Virus record (IMG/VR): IMGVR_UViG_3300025141_000902
Location: 1 to 21,653 of that record
Origin: a virus
Length of the DNA: 21,653 nt
Strand: one strand, 5' to 3'
A program made the position numbers and the translations under genes. How positions within the stretch are numbered: position 1 is the stretch's first letter; every line of letters begins with the position of its first letter. Shown here piece after piece: positions 10,605-18,734 of the stretch. Under the pieces are notes generated by a model. It saw nothing but the letters and a program-made list of their open reading frames with translations. It ran no database searches and was not told where the DNA came from.

Positions 10605-11106
10605 CTTAGAAAGTACAGGGCTACTCAGGCGTGGTTCAAAGATTCACTGCATAGTTATGCGTGACATGAGTAACCCTGAAGAGCCTATGATGTTTGACCC
10701 TGACCCAGAGCGTGCGGTCATTACAGGAATTAAACAATTAGAGCGTGCTGATGTACTTATCGGCCATAATATAATTGGCTTTGACGTTCCCTTAATTAAG
10801 GAGCAGTACGACTTCAACTTCAAGGGTGACCTTGTAGATACACTGGTCCTTAGTAGAATTTTCTACCCCAATATCAGTGAACGTGATTATATGCGTAAGC
10901 CGTCAGGGATGCCTCAGAAGCTCTATGGAAGACACTCTCTGGAAGCCTGGGGATACAGACTGAAGTGCTTTAAGGGCGACTTCGGTAAGCAAGGCGGGGC
11001 CTGGGAGACGTACACACCAGAGATGCTCTCATACTGCGTCACTGATACAGAAGTAACACTCAGGCTATTTGAACTTATGCAGCGGAGGATACAGGACTAT
11101 GACTGA
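10582..11106 (+). CDS. DNA polymerase I-type 3'-5' proofreading exonuclease (stand-alone)
   Basis: 174 residues forming a DEDDy exonuclease domain. Exo I is FDLESTG at 7-13 (D8, E10), Exo II is IGHNIIGFDVPLI with the metal-binding Asp, and Exo III is SYCVTDTEVTLRLF near residue 155 with the YxxxD pair. The segment LVDTLVLSRIFYP and the SLEAWGYRL helix are typical of the T7-like polymerase exonuclease domain. The start at 10582 is chosen because it begins MKTQLLFDLES directly at the first strand; the longer frame from 10429 is a shadow of the upstream gene. It works with the polymerase encoded at 11235, from which it is separated by a 48-residue ORF. Confidence 0.9.
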   Translation: MKTQLLFDLESTGLLRRGSKIHCIVMRDMSNPEEPMMFDPDPERAVITGIKQLERADVLIGHNIIGFDVPLIKEQYDFNFKGDLVDTLVLSRIFYPNISERDYMRKPSGMPQKLYGRHSLEAWGYRLKCFKGDFGKQGGAWETYTPEMLSYCVTDTEVTLRLFELMQRRIQDYD

Positions 11107-11245: not shown

Positions 11246-12539
11246 TTATGTATCACTAGAGATGCAGATGGCTGAGATCATGTCACAGCAGGAGGCCAGT
11301 GGCTTTCGCTTTGATATGAGTGCAGCTGAACGTGTTCGTAGTGAACTAGCAGCAGAGGCTGACAACCTCACAGAAGAGATCGGCAAACGTTTCCTGTATG
11401 TGCCAGGTAAAGTCTTTACCCCTAGACGTCAGGATAAACATAAAGGCTATGTCTCCGGTGCGCCGATGACAAAGTTACTAGACTTCAACCCTACTAGCAG
11501 GCAGCACATTGCCTGGGTACTAACCACATTCCGTGGTGCTCGGTTTCTTAAGGTCACCGACACAGGTAAACCTAAGGTTGATGAAGCGGTGCTCTCAGAA
11601 ATTAGAGACATCGCACTATCAGAAGAGAACACCAAGTTGCACGAAGAGTGCGGAATGTTTATACGTTTGCTGACATTACAGAAGTGGATGGGTCAATTAA
11701 GTGAAGGTACTAACTCCTGGTTTAATACAATTGGAGATGATGGTTGCATCCATCACTCCTGCTCATTAGCAACACAAACAGGACGTAACGCACATCGTGG
11801 TCCGAATCTAGGCCAAGTTGTAAGTGCACCCTGGGCACGTGAGCTATTCGTTCCCCATCCTGGCCACACGATGGTCGGGGCAGACCTTGAAGGCCTAGAA
11901 TTGAGGTGCTTAGGGCACTACCTTTTTAGGTATGATGATGGAAATTTCGCTTCAGTTGTACTCGATGGTGATATACACCAGCAAAATGCTGATCGTGTTG
12001 GATGCACACGTAAAGAGGTCAAAACAATTTGCTACGCGTTCATCTATGGGGCCGGCGATGTGAGACTTGGCCATAGCCTCGACCCTGCACTGTCTGACGC
12101 ACAAAAGAAATCTCTCGGAACGGACATTAGACGTAAGTTCCTCGACGCTATCCCAGGACTAGAGCCATTGATCCTTGCCGTTAAGGAGAAGGTGCGTGGT
12201 TCTGGAAGACTGAGAGGATTAGATGGGAGACCGATCTTCTGTACTGTTGAACACGCAGCACTTAACTATCTACTACAGTCAGCAGGTGCAATCCTCAGTA
12301 AGCGCTGGGTTGTTATAGGTCAACAAGACCTAGATGACGCAGGGTTTACCTATGATAAAGATTACACTCGCTGTGCTTACGTACACGATGAAGTCCAACT
12401 GTCAGTTATTCCTAGTGAAGCTGAACGCGTAGGCCAGTTGCTTGAACAAGCAGCGCCTAAGGCAGGTCAGTACTATAACTTTAAAGTACCGATCACAGCA
12501 TCAGCAGCTACTGGAGATACCTGGGCAGCTACCCATTAA
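11235..12539 (+). CDS. Family A DNA polymerase, polymerase domain only
   Basis: 434 residues. I chose ATG 11235 (MFPDYV) because AGGAGG at 11223-11228 stands six bases before it; the ATG at 11229 touches that site. Motifs: TGRNAHRGPNLGQV at about 182-195, motif A GADLEGLELR at 215-224 (catalytic D217), motif B RKEVKTICYAFIYG (R259, K263, Y267), and motif C YVHDE with H384, D385 and E386. The residue equivalent to E. coli F762 is Tyr, as in T7 polymerase. The proofreading domain is in the gene at 10582, so polymerase and exonuclease must pair in trans. It is the main replicative enzyme of the phage, acting with the primase-helicase at 4337. Confidence 0.95.
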   Translation: MFPDYVSLEMQMAEIMSQQEASGFRFDMSAAERVRSELAAEADNLTEEIGKRFLYVPGKVFTPRRQDKHKGYVSGAPMTKLLDFNPTSRQHIAWVLTTFRGARFLKVTDTGKPKVDEAVLSEIRDIALSEENTKLHEECGMFIRLLTLQKWMGQLSEGTNSWFNTIGDDGCIHHSCSLATQTGRNAHRGPNLGQVVSAPWARELFVPHPGHTMVGADLEGLELRCLGHYLFRYDDGNFASVVLDGDIHQQNADRVGCTRKEVKTICYAFIYGAGDVRLGHSLDPALSDAQKKSLGTDIRRKFLDAIPGLEPLILAVKEKVRGSGRLRGLDGRPIFCTVEHAALNYLLQSAGAILSKRWVVIGQQDLDDAGFTYDKDYTRCAYVHDEVQLSVIPSEAERVGQLLEQAAPKAGQYYNFKVPITASAATGDTWAATH

Positions 12540-12543
12540 GATC

Positions 12544-12741
12544 ATGAGTGAAGAAGAAGTACAGGATATGATTGATGGCGCCATCAGGCGTCACAATCGT
12601 AACGCTAGTATCATTAGCATCATCATTGGTTGGGTGATGCTAGCGGCATTTATGGATGGTCTACTAAGGCTACTAGGATTGATCCCACCTTTTATGGGAT
12701 TAGACATCAACCTACTACCACGTATCGCAGATTTAATATGA
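12544..12741 (+). CDS. Small membrane protein (65 aa)
   Basis: Starts four bases after the polymerase stop and overlaps the next start by four. Residues 1-18 are charged (MSEEEVQDMIDGAIRRHN). Then comes a hydrophobic stretch (ASIISIIIGWVMLAAFMDGL) and a second weaker one (LRLLGLIPPFMGLDINLL). That gives one clear membrane segment and possibly two. Such small proteins in phages can be holins or membrane anchors for replication, but nothing specific is seen. The N-terminal charged helix on the outside of the segment is all that can be stated. Confidence 0.7.
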   Translation: MSEEEVQDMIDGAIRRHNRNASIISIIIGWVMLAAFMDGLLRLLGLIPPFMGLDINLLPRIADLI

Positions 12742-15214: not shown

Positions 15215-15223
15215 AAACCTAGT

Positions 15224-15279
15224 GCGTTCATCAGCATAAGCTGACGCAAGTAAGCTCAAGAGAGGAGCTGAAGGAACGG
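15224..15279 (+). promoter_or_regulatory. Glutamine riboswitch, downstream-peptide class
   Basis: The element has all parts expected of the glutamine-binding RNAs first named glnA and downstream-peptide. P1 is CGTTC (15225-15229) with GAACG (15274-15278). P2 is TCAGC (15231-15235), loop ATAA, and GCTGA (15240-15244). The conserved core is CGCAAGTA, and P3 is AGCTC (15253-15257) with GAGCT (15265-15269). The 3' conserved GAAGGAAC is at 15270-15277. The class is known from marine picocyanobacteria, metagenomes and cyanophage and controls short peptide genes, as here. It reports host glutamine, hence nitrogen status. Confidence 0.88.
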
Positions 15280-15306
15280 GAATATTCAACCCTACTGGAG
15301 TATTCC
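15279..15306 (+). promoter_or_regulatory. Shine-Dalgarno-sequestering hairpin (riboswitch expression platform)
   Basis: GGAATATTC (15279-15287) pairs with GAGTATTCC (15298-15306) with one G-U pair. The right arm includes most of the ribosome site GGAG (15297-15300), seven bases before the ATG at 15308. The left arm begins at the last bases of riboswitch P1, so folding of P1 and of this hairpin could influence one another. This fits control of translation by glutamine. Confidence 0.65.
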
Positions 15307-15307
15307 A

Positions 15308-15454
15308 ATGTCTACTGTTCAAGCAAAAGGACTCGTTAACGTCCGCAACAAAATGGTCCGTGCCCAGAAAGAAGCACGTGCTGCTCAACAACGTGAACTG
15401 CCTAATCAGACTACTGTAACTTTGTGTTATCGCGGTGTGCCTTACGTTCGCTGA
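15308..15454 (+). CDS. Riboswitch-controlled 48-residue peptide (YRG motif, DUF4278/PirA-like end)
   Basis: ATG to TGA with GGAG seven bases upstream. The N-terminal two thirds are basic and helical (MSTVQAKGLVNVRNKMVRAQ, then KEARAAQQREL). The end is TVTLCYRGVPYVR, containing the LxYRGxxY motif of the cyanobacterial DUF4278 family, to which the PII-interacting peptide PirA belongs. In cyanobacteria, glutamine riboswitches and nitrogen regulators control short proteins that adjust glutamine synthetase (IF17) or arginine synthesis (PirA). A phage copy could reset host nitrogen flow during infection; this is inference. A strong terminator follows, so riboswitch, peptide and terminator form a self-contained cassette. 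Confidence 0.85.
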   Translation: MSTVQAKGLVNVRNKMVRAQKEARAAQQRELPNQTTVTLCYRGVPYVR

Positions 15455-15601: not shown

Positions 15602-15988
15602 ATGATTTCTATTATCTCAAAAGCTGCAGCAGTCGTATGTGTTAGCTGCCTTGGTGCAACTTCAGTCTTCGCTGCTCCTTATGTCAATGTAGAGAACAAC
15701 AGTGGTTTCTATGACAATGAATTCGGTGGTGGTTCCACTGACCTTCACCTTGGATTTGAAGCTAACCTTAGTGATTCCGTAGGTTTCTATGCTCAAGGTG
15801 GTCCTCAAATTCAGCACGTTAAAGATGCTGATTCTCAGACTGAATACTCAGGTAAGGTTGGCGCTAGTGTAGCGATCACTGATCACCTGGGAGCCTATGG
15901 TGAAGTTGCTGCTGTTACGAACAACAAAGAGTTCTCACCTGATACCTTGAATGTCGGCACCAAGCTTGGAGTTAAGTATACCTTCTGA
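15602..15988 (+). CDS. Small exported outer-membrane-like beta-barrel protein (128 aa)
   Basis: Residues 1-25 are a signal peptide (ISIISKAAAVVCVSCLGAT, cleavage after SVFAA). The mature part alternates strands typical of a small eight-strand barrel: YVNVENNSGFYDNEFGG, DLHLGFEANLSDSVGFYAQGG, YSGKVGASVAITDHLGAYGE and LNVGTKLGVKYTF. The final Phe after alternating hydrophobics matches the C-terminal signature of outer-membrane barrels. Such a protein could alter the host envelope (superinfection exclusion) or reach the virion surface. It stands alone between two terminators, so it has its own promoter in the AT-rich 15489-15601 gap, where I see no clear boxes. Confidence 0.75.
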   Translation: MISIISKAAAVVCVSCLGATSVFAAPYVNVENNSGFYDNEFGGGSTDLHLGFEANLSDSVGFYAQGGPQIQHVKDADSQTEYSGKVGASVAITDHLGAYGEVAAVTNNKEFSPDTLNVGTKLGVKYTF

Positions 15989-16037: not shown

Positions 16038-16370
16038 TTAAAACCCTGGTAGATCTAAATCAATCCCAAGTCCCTGCATATTATATTCCTTATAGATATC
16101 ACCAAGGCCTGAATCTGCAATACCTTCATTCTTAAGCTGATCACTGCGGCGATTCTGAGCACCTACATCACGCATACGATCCTGCTGAATATGACGACCG
16201 TGTCTCCACTCAGGACTCGTAGTACCACCAGTACCAGGTGTTGAAGTCTGGGTACGCTTCGGTGCATTTGTTTGCCACGCCTGCTGACCACGCCATGCTT
16301 TAACCTGCTTGAGAGCCTGTTGTCTATTTTTGTAGGCTCCACTCTGGTTATAATCAGAGCGGTCCCTCAT
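16038..16370 (-). CDS. Hypothetical Gln/Arg/Gly-rich protein (110 aa)
   Basis: The start is set at the internal Met (MRDRSDYNQSG) because AGGAGG lies six bases before it; the longer frame to 16412 has no ribosome site. The protein is polar and probably disordered for most of its length (YKNRQQALKQVKAWRGQQAW, then Thr/Gly-rich, then WRHGRHIQQDRMRDVGAQNR), ending in a hydrophobic tail (YNMQGLGIDLDLPGF). This composition is common in small cyanophage virion-associated proteins. No function can be read. Confidence 0.7.
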   Translation of the reverse strand: MRDRSDYNQSGAYKNRQQALKQVKAWRGQQAWQTNAPKRTQTSTPGTGGTTSPEWRHGRHIQQDRMRDVGAQNRRSDQLKNEGIADSGLGDIYKEYNMQGLGIDLDLPGF

Positions 16371-16454
16371 GTTTAGCCTCCTTCTATCAATAGGTTTATT
16401 TCTAAGATTCACAATGTCTAATAATACCTATCGTTACTTTTATATTATAAGAAA

Positions 16455-16679
16455 TTACTGAATACCAACTTGCTGCTTGAGTTCACTAACTGCTTTAGCG
16501 AAAGGTATCAGTGTCTTCATTGTTTTCTCAATAATCTTATCTTCTTGTACAGCAGCAACAGCTTCCAGTACCTTCACTCTCTCGTCAAGGCTTACAATTG
16601 TCTTATGATCCTCTCGAATTTTTTTACCACATCCAATTGCAACAAGTACGGCAGCCAGGGGTCCGATTACGAATTCCAT
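16455..16679 (-). CDS. Small membrane plus coiled-coil protein (74 aa)
   Basis: Residues 1-18 form a membrane segment (MEFVIGPLAAVLVAIGCG), followed by a basic patch (KKIREDHK) and a coiled coil to the end (SLDERVKVLEAVAAVQEDK and on, closing SELKQQVGIQ). It has the same plan as the 80-residue protein at 17433, which suggests paralogues or two parts of one membrane device. In phages this plan occurs among holin/spanin-like and membrane-anchored proteins. No Shine-Dalgarno sequence is visible. Confidence 0.65.
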   Translation of the reverse strand: MEFVIGPLAAVLVAIGCGKKIREDHKTIVSLDERVKVLEAVAAVQEDKIIEKTMKTLIPFAKAVSELKQQVGIQ

Positions 16680-16713: not shown

Positions 16714-17037
16714 TTACATCAACATAAGGGGGTCGTCATCTAGATCATCATTCTCGTATCCTTCGTCATCTATATTCGATGGAAGATTATCATCTGCCAT
16801 AGTCAATAGATCAACAAACGTTTCTTCACTTATGATTTCAGGCAGGCCGCCCTGTGTTTCTTCAATCTTAAAAATGATACCGTTTGAATGCAATGATTCC
16901 TGGATCCCATTCTTCTGCTCCATTCGAGAACGCAGCAACTTTACGGCAGTTTTCTCTAAAGCGTGACGACTCATGCGTGATACTTCATACCTCGCACGTT
17001 GTAAGGCGAACCGCTGCTCGATCGTCAAGGTGTTCAT
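16714..17037 (-). CDS. NblA-like protein with acidic C-terminal extension (107 aa)
   Basis: NblA is the small adaptor that delivers phycobilisomes to Clp protease when cyanobacteria lack nitrogen, and some cyanophages carry it. The first 50 residues follow the NblA pattern: LTIEQRFALQRARYEVSRMS (4-23) matches L(S/T)(I/L)EQxFxL....V..MS, followed by a helix ALEKTAVKLLRSRMEQKN in the position of the second NblA helix. At 107 residues it is longer than the usual about 60; the extra part is acidic and ends DDLDDDPLMLM. A GGAG lies nine bases before the ATG. It overlaps the HNH gene by 53 nt. Other helical-hairpin proteins remain possible. Confidence 0.5.
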   Translation of the reverse strand: MNTLTIEQRFALQRARYEVSRMSRHALEKTAVKLLRSRMEQKNGIQESLHSNGIIFKIEETQGGLPEIISEETFVDLLTMADDNLPSNIDDEGYENDDLDDDPLMLM

Positions 17038-17383
17038 TAACTAAATCTCCATCAACATAACGTTTGTTTTGAATCCACTCTTCTATTAATTCTTTTACCA
17101 CAGCATTGTAGAAGTCCTGCTGTTCATACCACTGTAGCCAATTATTAGAACCTTTTGCGTGATTACAGGATTTACATGCTGGCACTAGGTTAGAGCGTAA
17201 GTTGCTCCCGCCCTTTGATTTTGGTCTTAAATGGTCTAGTGTTGTTGCCCTTTGTTCTCTACAATAAGCACATAGCCCTCCGAATGAATAACGTATTGAA
17301 TTTCGGAACTGCTTTTTAGCAGAACCTGAGGAGAGACAGTTGAGGGAATAAAGGATTTCCCCCCAACTTTCTGCGTATTTCAT
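16985..17383 (-). CDS. HNH endonuclease
   Basis: 132 residues with a complete HNH core: CAYC (38-41), TLDHLRPKSKGGSNLRSNLV (48-67) holding D50, H51 and N65, and CKSCNHAKGSN (70-80) with the second zinc Cys pair and N74. The four Cys bind structural zinc and H51/N65/N74 form the active site. Stand-alone HNH enzymes of this size in cyanophages are either homing endonucleases or packaging helpers. With no terminase gene near, homing or genome-cutting is more likely. The end overlaps the NblA-like gene by 53 nt in another frame. Confidence 0.9.
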   Translation of the reverse strand: MKYAESWGEILYSLNCLSSGSAKKQFRNSIRYSFGGLCAYCREQRATTLDHLRPKSKGGSNLRSNLVPACKSCNHAKGSNNWLQWYEQQDFYNAVVKELIEEWIQNKRYVDGDLVNEHLDDRAAVRLTTCEV

Positions 17384-17432: not shown

Positions 17433-17675
17433 TCAATGCCTGTTGCGGCTATTAGTAACTAATGCATCAAGTTTATTTTCAATACGTTCCATATGACCTT
17501 CCATACGATCAACCATAACTGCTAAGTCTTCTTTGCTTACATAAGCTTGAGCAATTCTCAATTCAATTTTATCTATACGCTTATCCAATTCAAGTATCCT
17601 ACCATAGATACGATTAGTTAAAACGAAACCGCCAGTCACCATAGCAACAAGGGCACTTACTCCTGCTTCTACCAT
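17433..17675 (-). CDS. Small membrane plus coiled-coil protein (80 aa)
   Basis: AAGGAG stands six bases before the ATG, so the start is firm. Residues 3-20 are a membrane segment (EAGVSALVAMVTGGFVLT), and from residue 24 there is a long coiled coil (RILELDKRIDKIELRIAQ, then VMVDRMEGHMERIENKLDAL). The plan matches the 74-residue protein at 16455. Cyanophages commonly carry one such short protein near their lysis genes; a holin or anti-holin type role is possible but unproven. Confidence 0.7.
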   Translation of the reverse strand: MVEAGVSALVAMVTGGFVLTNRIYGRILELDKRIDKIELRIAQAYVSKEDLAVMVDRMEGHMERIENKLDALVTNSRNRH

Positions 17676-17735: not shown

Positions 17736-18497
17736 TCAGAGAGGTATCTCCTGCATAGCTTCCCACTTATCTTCTAATTCAATTAGCCCATAGTGCTGTG
17801 TCATTGAGTTTGATGAATGCCCCATCAGTGCTTGTTGAATTGTAAATTCAATCTTTGCTCTCATCATGCGTGCTCTGAAGTAATGTCTCAAAGCGTGGTA
17901 GTTACCTTTACAGTAACGAGCAATCCTATGTTGTTCTGCTTTTGATGATCGTTCCATCTTCCACTTCTTCGCATAAGGCAGCCACGAAGGATGAATAGGC
18001 ACCTCTCTTATGGAAGCGTCATTCTTCAAACGTCTTGCCTCTGTGTGATACAAGTCAATATAAGGGATGTCCGTTTCTATATGGATATCTCTTGACTCAA
18101 GTCCACCTAACTCTTCCAGTCGCATACCGTGTGCCCAGATTCCAAGAAAGAACGGGCAGTCATGTAGTCTTTCAAATTCCTCAAATCTTCTTGTCTTGTA
18201 GCGTCTTTTGGAAGGCTTGAGTCCAAACTTTAGTCCCTCCCATACATTGACTTCAAGTTTCCCCATGTGTTTCCCAAGCTTCCATAGTGCCTCTAGGTTT
18301 GCGATATCCTGCCTCAAAGTTCCATCGCAATGTTGATAAGGACGATTCTCTCTGAATTCCCGTGCGTCATCCACGGTGAATGTGGTGTAGTCCGCGTCCA
18401 GCAATGGCTTGGCGGAATTCAGAATTCTTATTTGGCTTGACTCTTCCCTTTTCTTAATCTTGAAACTGTATTGAATCAGGTCGTAGACGGTGTTCAT
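17736..18497 (-). CDS. int: Tyrosine recombinase (phage integrase)
   Basis: 253 residues. The start is at MNTVYDLIQY because AAGGAG lies six bases upstream; the longer frame to 18734 runs through a repeat array and has no ribosome site. The catalytic set is complete: R126 (AHGMRLEELGGL), K158 (RRLKNDASIREVPIHP), H201 and R204 (NYHALRHYF), H227 (LMGHSSNSMT) and the nucleophile Y236 (QHYGL). The N-terminal core-binding part is about 100 residues. It recombines phage and host attachment sites. The region just upstream has three direct repeats and two inverted repeats that look like an attP. Confidence 0.93.
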   Translation of the reverse strand: MNTVYDLIQYSFKIKKREESSQIRILNSAKPLLDADYTTFTVDDAREFRENRPYQHCDGTLRQDIANLEALWKLGKHMGKLEVNVWEGLKFGLKPSKRRYKTRRFEEFERLHDCPFFLGIWAHGMRLEELGGLESRDIHIETDIPYIDLYHTEARRLKNDASIREVPIHPSWLPYAKKWKMERSSKAEQHRIARYCKGNYHALRHYFRARMMRAKIEFTIQQALMGHSSNSMTQHYGLIELEDKWEAMQEIPL

Positions 18498-18570
18498 GTT
18501 AGGCTCCTTGAATATAAACCACTTCACACAAAACTTTACCAGATCAGAGCCGTTAGCGGGGGTTGTTTTT

Positions 18571-18650
18571 TGTGAGAAGCATCCCCTAGGCTTGTTCTGT
18601 GAAAAACATCCCGAAGACCTCGAATGGGGTGATTCTGTGAGAATCATCCC
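18571..18650. repeat. Three direct repeats upstream of the integrase gene (arm-type sites?)
   Basis: The 15-base unit TGTGARAAnCATCCC occurs at 18571-18585, 18598-18612 and 18636-18650, each preceded by TTYT or TTT. Starts are 27 and 38 bases apart. The third copy lies inside a hairpin-capable palindrome (GGGGTGATTC, TGTGA, GAATCATCCC; 18626-18650). Regularly spaced units beside an integrase resemble the arm-type binding sites of an attP, or operators of the int promoter. Confidence 0.75.
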
Positions 18651-18702
18651 GATGATCTTCAGTGCCTTGTCTACGACTGCTAAGTCTGGGTAAGCGTCTT
18701 GT

Positions 18703-18734
18703 GTGCTGTGGCTATGAAAAAGGTAGCACAGCAC
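18703..18734. repeat. Inverted repeat, possible attP core
   Basis: GTGCTGTGGCTA (18703-18714) and TAGCACAGCAC (18724-18734) are reverse complements with one extra G, separated by nine bases. Imperfect inverted arms around a 6-9 base spacer are what a tyrosine-recombinase core site looks like. It is not followed by a T-run on either strand, so it is not a normal terminator, although it does lie just after the end of the leftward 18750 gene. Confidence 0.4.

Follow-up and report, generated by a model that had tools for sequence, protein, structure and literature searches.

An NblA homologue with a conserved C-terminal extension in a lineage of uncultured ocean viruses

NblA is a small protein of cyanobacteria that delivers the light-harvesting antennae of the cell to a protease, and phage NblAs are already known, in the form of short, AMG-like versions of the host adaptor. 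To our knowledge, an NblA-like protein with a tail, in fixed pairing with an HNH gene and absent from the phage isolates searched, is undescribed so far. Mechanistically, NblA serves as an adaptor through which ClpC is brought to the phycobilisomes (PMC7966870, PMC7760959), with ClpC binding assigned to its N-terminal motif (PMC4103541). Among marine phages, the NblA of a podovirus-cluster cyanophage is active when expressed in S. elongatus, as related in PMC9602691, which cites Nadel 2019.

The window analyzed here is the whole virus record, a stretch of 21,653 bases, and carries on its minus strand a 107-aa NblA-like protein composed of a core and an extension, with the following features:

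16714..17037, minus strand: NblA-like gene with C-terminal extension (107 aa, ATG start, Pfam NblA match, 68 distinct homologues of the same architecture)
17047..17050, minus strand: GGAG, Shine-Dalgarno-like, 9 nt upstream of the ATG (assigned on the basis of sequence)
16882..17037, minus strand: NblA core, residues 1-52, with predicted helices 6-20 and 24-51 and the N-terminal LTIEQRFAL (ClpC-type motif)
16717..16881, minus strand: lineage-specific extension, residues 53-107, reading NGI.FKI.E..GLPEIISEETF..LL (helix 71-80) and then an acidic tail
16717..16791, minus strand: acidic tail, residues 83-107, with a hydrophobic C-terminus (from the composition of all intact homologues)

The first-pass annotation had recognized an NblA pattern in the N-terminal ~50 residues, and this was confirmed by the Pfam NblA model (PF04485), which matches residues 4-49 with 28.1 bits (E 2.8e-6; curated cut-off, 25) and is matched by 65 of the 67 intact relatives at E <= 0.01, part of them below the curated cut-off. 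A profile search against NblA structures had been set beforehand as a check and found NblA: the family profile has 3cs5 as its best match in the PDB (E 3.9e-5), a second NblA, 1ojh, is matched weakly in an identical register, and a phmmer search of the PDB with the window protein returned 3cs5 as the sole match. Profile-profile comparison of the family with cellular and phage NblA aligned 54 columns without a gap (E 1.4e-5). Scored singly against the cellular and phage NblA profile, family members reached a median of 15.4 bits and a maximum of 25.2, the best among 5000 core-shuffled copies being 16.9 bits. The NCBIfam NblA equivalog model (NF045916) gave 26 bits, far under its 100-bit cut-off, and a search of PHROGs placed the protein in no family and matched no phage structural family. 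Judged by these sequence comparisons, the gene product is an NblA homologue.

AlphaFold2, run with 67 sequences, predicts the two-helix core that had been expected, with helices 6-20 and 24-51 at a pLDDT of ~80-90, followed by a further short helix at 71-80; the tail is poorly ordered. As regards the dimer (four-helix bundle) of NblA, the model is a monomer with two core helices of good confidence. Foldseek searches of the PDB and of viral models with this model returned no NblA structure and nothing usable, which is taken as uninformative, not negative, because the query is a two-helix monomer. A chance resemblance of a short helical protein to NblA is highly improbable; the core is indeed short (~46 aligned residues), Foldseek adds no NblA structure and the same Pfam model gives weak matches in some control genomes, but the score above the curated cut-off, the breadth of the matches among relatives, the agreement in register of two NblA structures, the ungapped profile alignment, shuffled controls that seldom reach the real scores and the presence of the gene in phages of phycobilisome-bearing hosts (see below) all argue against it.

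IMG/VR was scanned twice and the genome contigs of GTDB once, which recovered 84 loci besides the window, and the family profile picked out 68 distinct proteins, all of 107–114 aa except for one in L084 that is apparently a fragment (67 aa) of a split gene. At 107 aa against about 60 for NblA, the protein is nearly double the usual length, as had been pointed out. The first-pass annotation had further described the added part as an acidic tail, which holds for the C-terminus, acidic and conserved lineage-wide, but not for the extension as a whole: of its ~55 residues only roughly 83-107 are acidic and residues 53-82 form a separate conserved segment. Invariant or near-invariant positions across the family include P66, E67, I68, S70, E71, T73, F74, L78, E95, D98 and D102, and the last 27 residues contain 10–14 acidic and 0–1 basic residues in every intact homologue. 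The core has a median dN/dS of 0.09, residues 51-82 one of 0.16 and residues 83-107 one of 0.20, figures that are rough because synonymous sites are often saturated. Purifying selection acts on residues 53-107. The low dN/dS and the 68 distinct homologues exclude both a freely drifting tail and a family restricted to the window, and from the alignment the acidic tail is a conserved trait of the whole lineage, not private to the phage of the window. A tblastn search of phage isolates produced no real match (best E 0.2, to Escherichia phages), the NblA-like gene with its extension being absent from the isolates of the searched collection.

Separately from this gene, one 67 kb relative (G013) encodes a possible second NblA-like protein of 72 aa (L133:6738-6956, minus strand; ...FxLPLEKELRLxVIKxEI...MKYQHLL...) with a weak NblA resemblance. 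The second short candidate is also found in G016, G010, G039 and L052, with the G039 copy matching PF04485 at E 1.6e-3, and relatives that possess it may encode two NblA-like proteins per phage.

The two ends of the NblA core have fared differently in the family. At the N-terminus, L4, E7, Q8, F10 and L12 are identical in 68 of 68 proteins, preserving the L-x-x-E-Q-x-F-x-L motif of the putative ClpC-binding end. At the other end, NblA positions 52, 53 and 56 correspond to L49, to M/L/A/H50 and to an invariant G53, such that the C-terminal "LLKxxW" of NblA is replaced by "LxxNGI.FK" and the extension; one Leu (L49) is retained and the Lys and Trp (W56) positions are changed. Work by Bienert in 2006 is said to have placed Leu51 and Lys53 of Anabaena NblA in this C-terminal, phycobiliprotein-binding end. 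As the phycobiliprotein-binding end is not conserved, the target of the NblA-like protein is not to be assumed, and because the antenna-binding end is replaced, a decoy or retargeted Clp adaptor becomes a serious, if tentative, rival to an NblA role: the core would dock on ClpC, and the extension would bring another substrate (e.g., a protein of host defence or regulation) or block the site of the host adaptor. Such blocking would protect antennae or phage proteins while phage psbA and hli keep photosynthesis going. The combination of an invariant N-terminal motif with a replaced C-terminal one speaks for such an adaptor, and the conservation of the new segment, with its invariant P, E, I, S, T and F, and the sustaining of photosynthesis by psbA and hli in these phages are in keeping with it. 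Against this, another substrate is conjecture and conservation does not reveal a target; the NblAs of the T7-like cyanophages S-TIP37 and S-SBP1 diverge in the C-terminal region too, and the podovirus-cluster marine phage NblA is, by the account in PMC9602691, active. A phage-made new Clp adaptor or anti-adaptor, with the ClpC end kept, the antenna end dropped and an acidic module that redirects or blocks host Clp late in marine Synechococcus infection, is in our estimation unlikely.

A cyanophage context had also been proposed for the window and is supported by its relatives, with psbA/psbD-type genes in 24 of 42 relative contigs (psbA in most of the larger ones) and hli-type matches in 23 of the 42, mostly under the cut-off of that broad family, the one that was checked being a clear phage hli. 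In a psbA tree of 19 genes and ten isolate phages, 18 of the 19 are Synechococcus-type, and their hosts should therefore possess phycobilisomes; the PF00124 match of G003, which clusters apart from all psbA, was taken as psbD and left out of the psbA count. The remaining psbA, from G032, groups with genes of Prochlorococcus phages in a placement that the tree does not resolve. Prochlorococcus has no phycobilisomes and is without nblA (PMC7439483). Low-GC members of the lineage include L058/G032 (0.386) and L052 (0.354), and, as the psbA of G032 is nearest to those of Prochlorococcus phages, some hosts of the lineage may lack phycobilisomes. The large terminase has its nearest isolate relative in Synechococcus phage S-EIV1, with 54% identity to G013. 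The window itself has no psbA, and its host is consequently judged from its relatives. Based on these marker genes, the hosts of these uncultured ocean viruses are probably mainly marine Synechococcus.

Contigs with an identical phage gene block are binned in MAGs assigned to TMED88, Rhodobacteraceae, Blastopirellula and Puniceicoccaceae (L016-L019), probably through misbinning. A non-cyanobacterial host, as the names Rhodobacteraceae, Blastopirellula and Puniceicoccaceae would imply, was rejected because the MAG matches are short phage contigs with the same gene block and the viral relatives have psbA, psbD and hli.

The gene sits in a block of minus-strand genes:

16985..17383, minus strand: HNH endonuclease gene (Pfam HNH/HNH_5), overlapping the start of the NblA-like gene by 53 nt
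16455..16679, minus strand: small ORF with membrane anchor and coiled coil, weakly holin-/spanin-like (weak matches to lysis families); next downstream gene, kept in 83 loci
16038..16412, minus strand: conserved ORF closing the block (81 loci)
17433..17675, minus strand: small membrane/coiled-coil ORF upstream of the HNH gene (phrog_12220)
17736..18734, minus strand: tyrosine integrase (PF00589, phrog_1)

Nearly all loci share the order HNH, NblA-like, small membrane-anchor/coiled-coil ORF and conserved ORF, and in 76 of 78 loci the start of the NblA-like gene shares 38–185 nt with the HNH gene. An independent search for the HNH gene returned 57 loci, with the NblA-like gene in 56 and the 57th ending at a contig edge. 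Never parted from HNH in the lineage, the NblA-like gene appears, from this synteny, to behave as a core gene and differs in this from the usual optional metabolic gene. Three large relatives (G013, G016 and G010) have packaging genes that can be recognised, and in these the NblA-like gene shares its strand with TerL, portal and capsid, opposite to ThyX, DNA polymerase and psbA; psbA is on the opposite strand also in the other contigs where both genes are seen. Within its set of structural genes, the lineage also has a gene for a sigma factor (L133:15631-16572, minus strand, in G013), and it may therefore itself direct late transcription.

The constant site, flanked in nearly all loci by the HNH gene and the holin-like one, the strand shared with TerL, portal and capsid and the acidic tail would suit a late protein associated with the virion, lysis or packaging, with a two-helix NblA-like core acquired by descent or convergence and no Clp role. 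We consider this quite unlikely, given that the NblA profile is significant in 65 of 67 relatives, that no phage structural family is matched and that position excludes one such function. A T7-like small terminase was ruled out because TerL is ~28 kb from the NblA-like gene in the 67 kb relative and is preceded by small genes of its own (encoding 178 and 95 aa), the 178-aa one staying beside TerL in G016 and G010. A reading in which the gene adjoins an endolysin was also dropped, because the single-linkage cluster behind it (cluster 11) mixed a C39 endolysin with a short ORF that shares only an N-terminal motif with it.

The window does contain the glutamine riboswitch that had been noted, in a unit of its own on the plus strand:

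15223..15282, plus strand: glutamine riboswitch aptamer (Rfam RF01739, 49 bits against a cut-off of 35), in a separate transcription unit
15308..15454, plus strand: 48-aa peptide downstream of the riboswitch, ending ...CYRGVPYVR, then a hairpin and a T-run

The aptamer is complete, as in the glnA/glutamine riboswitches of cyanobacteria and cyanophages; the window copy governs the other-strand 48-aa peptide, the unit closing in a terminator-like hairpin. Eight of the ten relatives scanned possess a glutamine riboswitch. Peptides with YRG..Y akin to the 48-aa peptide recur in relatives, with the G013 copy belonging to phrog_545, and further downstream of the peptide (15602-15988, plus strand) a gene of the cyanophage Phage_OMP family (PF24653) encodes a small beta-barrel protein of the outer membrane. 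The riboswitch does not regulate the NblA-like gene, as it is on the opposite strand and drives a separate peptide; the proposal that the gene and the riboswitch peptide give the phage two handles on host nitrogen therefore stays a hypothesis.

The reading we favour, with a probability of roughly 0.5, is that of a putative phage NblA that works via ClpC on the antenna and whose extension sets substrate choice or turnover. In an infected Synechococcus the core would dimerise and dock on ClpC through its N-terminal motif, and the extension, instead of the lost LLKxxW end, would decide the choice of antenna subunit for delivery or the lifetime of the adaptor. Expression would fall alongside that of the late genes, a timing suggested by gene arrangement, and phycobilisomes would be dismantled when the amino-acid demand of virions peaks or when light absorption needs trimming. 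The changed C-terminal end, the missed equivalog model, the lack of a structural match from Foldseek, the core-gene behaviour and the G032 psbA count against an NblA role. The family offers a natural, testable case of adaptor remodelling, with the extra segment as the possible setter of substrate, stability or Clp partner, and bears on whether phages direct Clp proteolysis of the host to ends other than antenna breakdown.

Among isolates, Synechococcus phage S-EIV1 (KJ410740) shares ThyX, a family A polymerase, HNH genes and the nearest TerL with the lineage, and a search of it with the family profile found no NblA-like protein. The freshwater cyanophages Ma-LMM01, MaMV-DC and PaV-LD likewise encode an NblA, but theirs are short and tail-less, score 45–52 bits against NblA and belong to other phage lineages; the nblA of Ma-LMM01 overlaps the neighbouring nrdA (PMC4103541), and the window gene is alike in overlapping a neighbour. 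Closer in habitat are the marine cyanopodovirus NblAs of the type of Nadel et al. 2019 (S-TIP37, S-SBP1), which share the NblA profile match and a related DNA polymerase with the lineage, whereas their NblAs have ~65 aa, are without the acidic extension and lie unannotated between exonuclease and nucleotide-metabolism genes (after the exonuclease, at ~12521-12661 (+) in S-TIP37, NC_048026, and ~10744-10890 (+) in S-SBP1, MT424636). With cyanobacterial NblA (PF04485; 3cs5, 1ojh) the family has in common the predicted helix-loop-helix core, ungapped over 54 columns, the L-x-x-E-Q-x-F-x-L motif, the MS at the helix turn and the conserved Met in helix 2. Cyanobacterial NblA is a single domain of ~60 aa, whereas all intact homologues of the phage family have 107–114 aa and possess, in place of LLKxxW, the LxxNGI.FK segment and a conserved acidic extension; the match to the equivalog model is below its cut-off.
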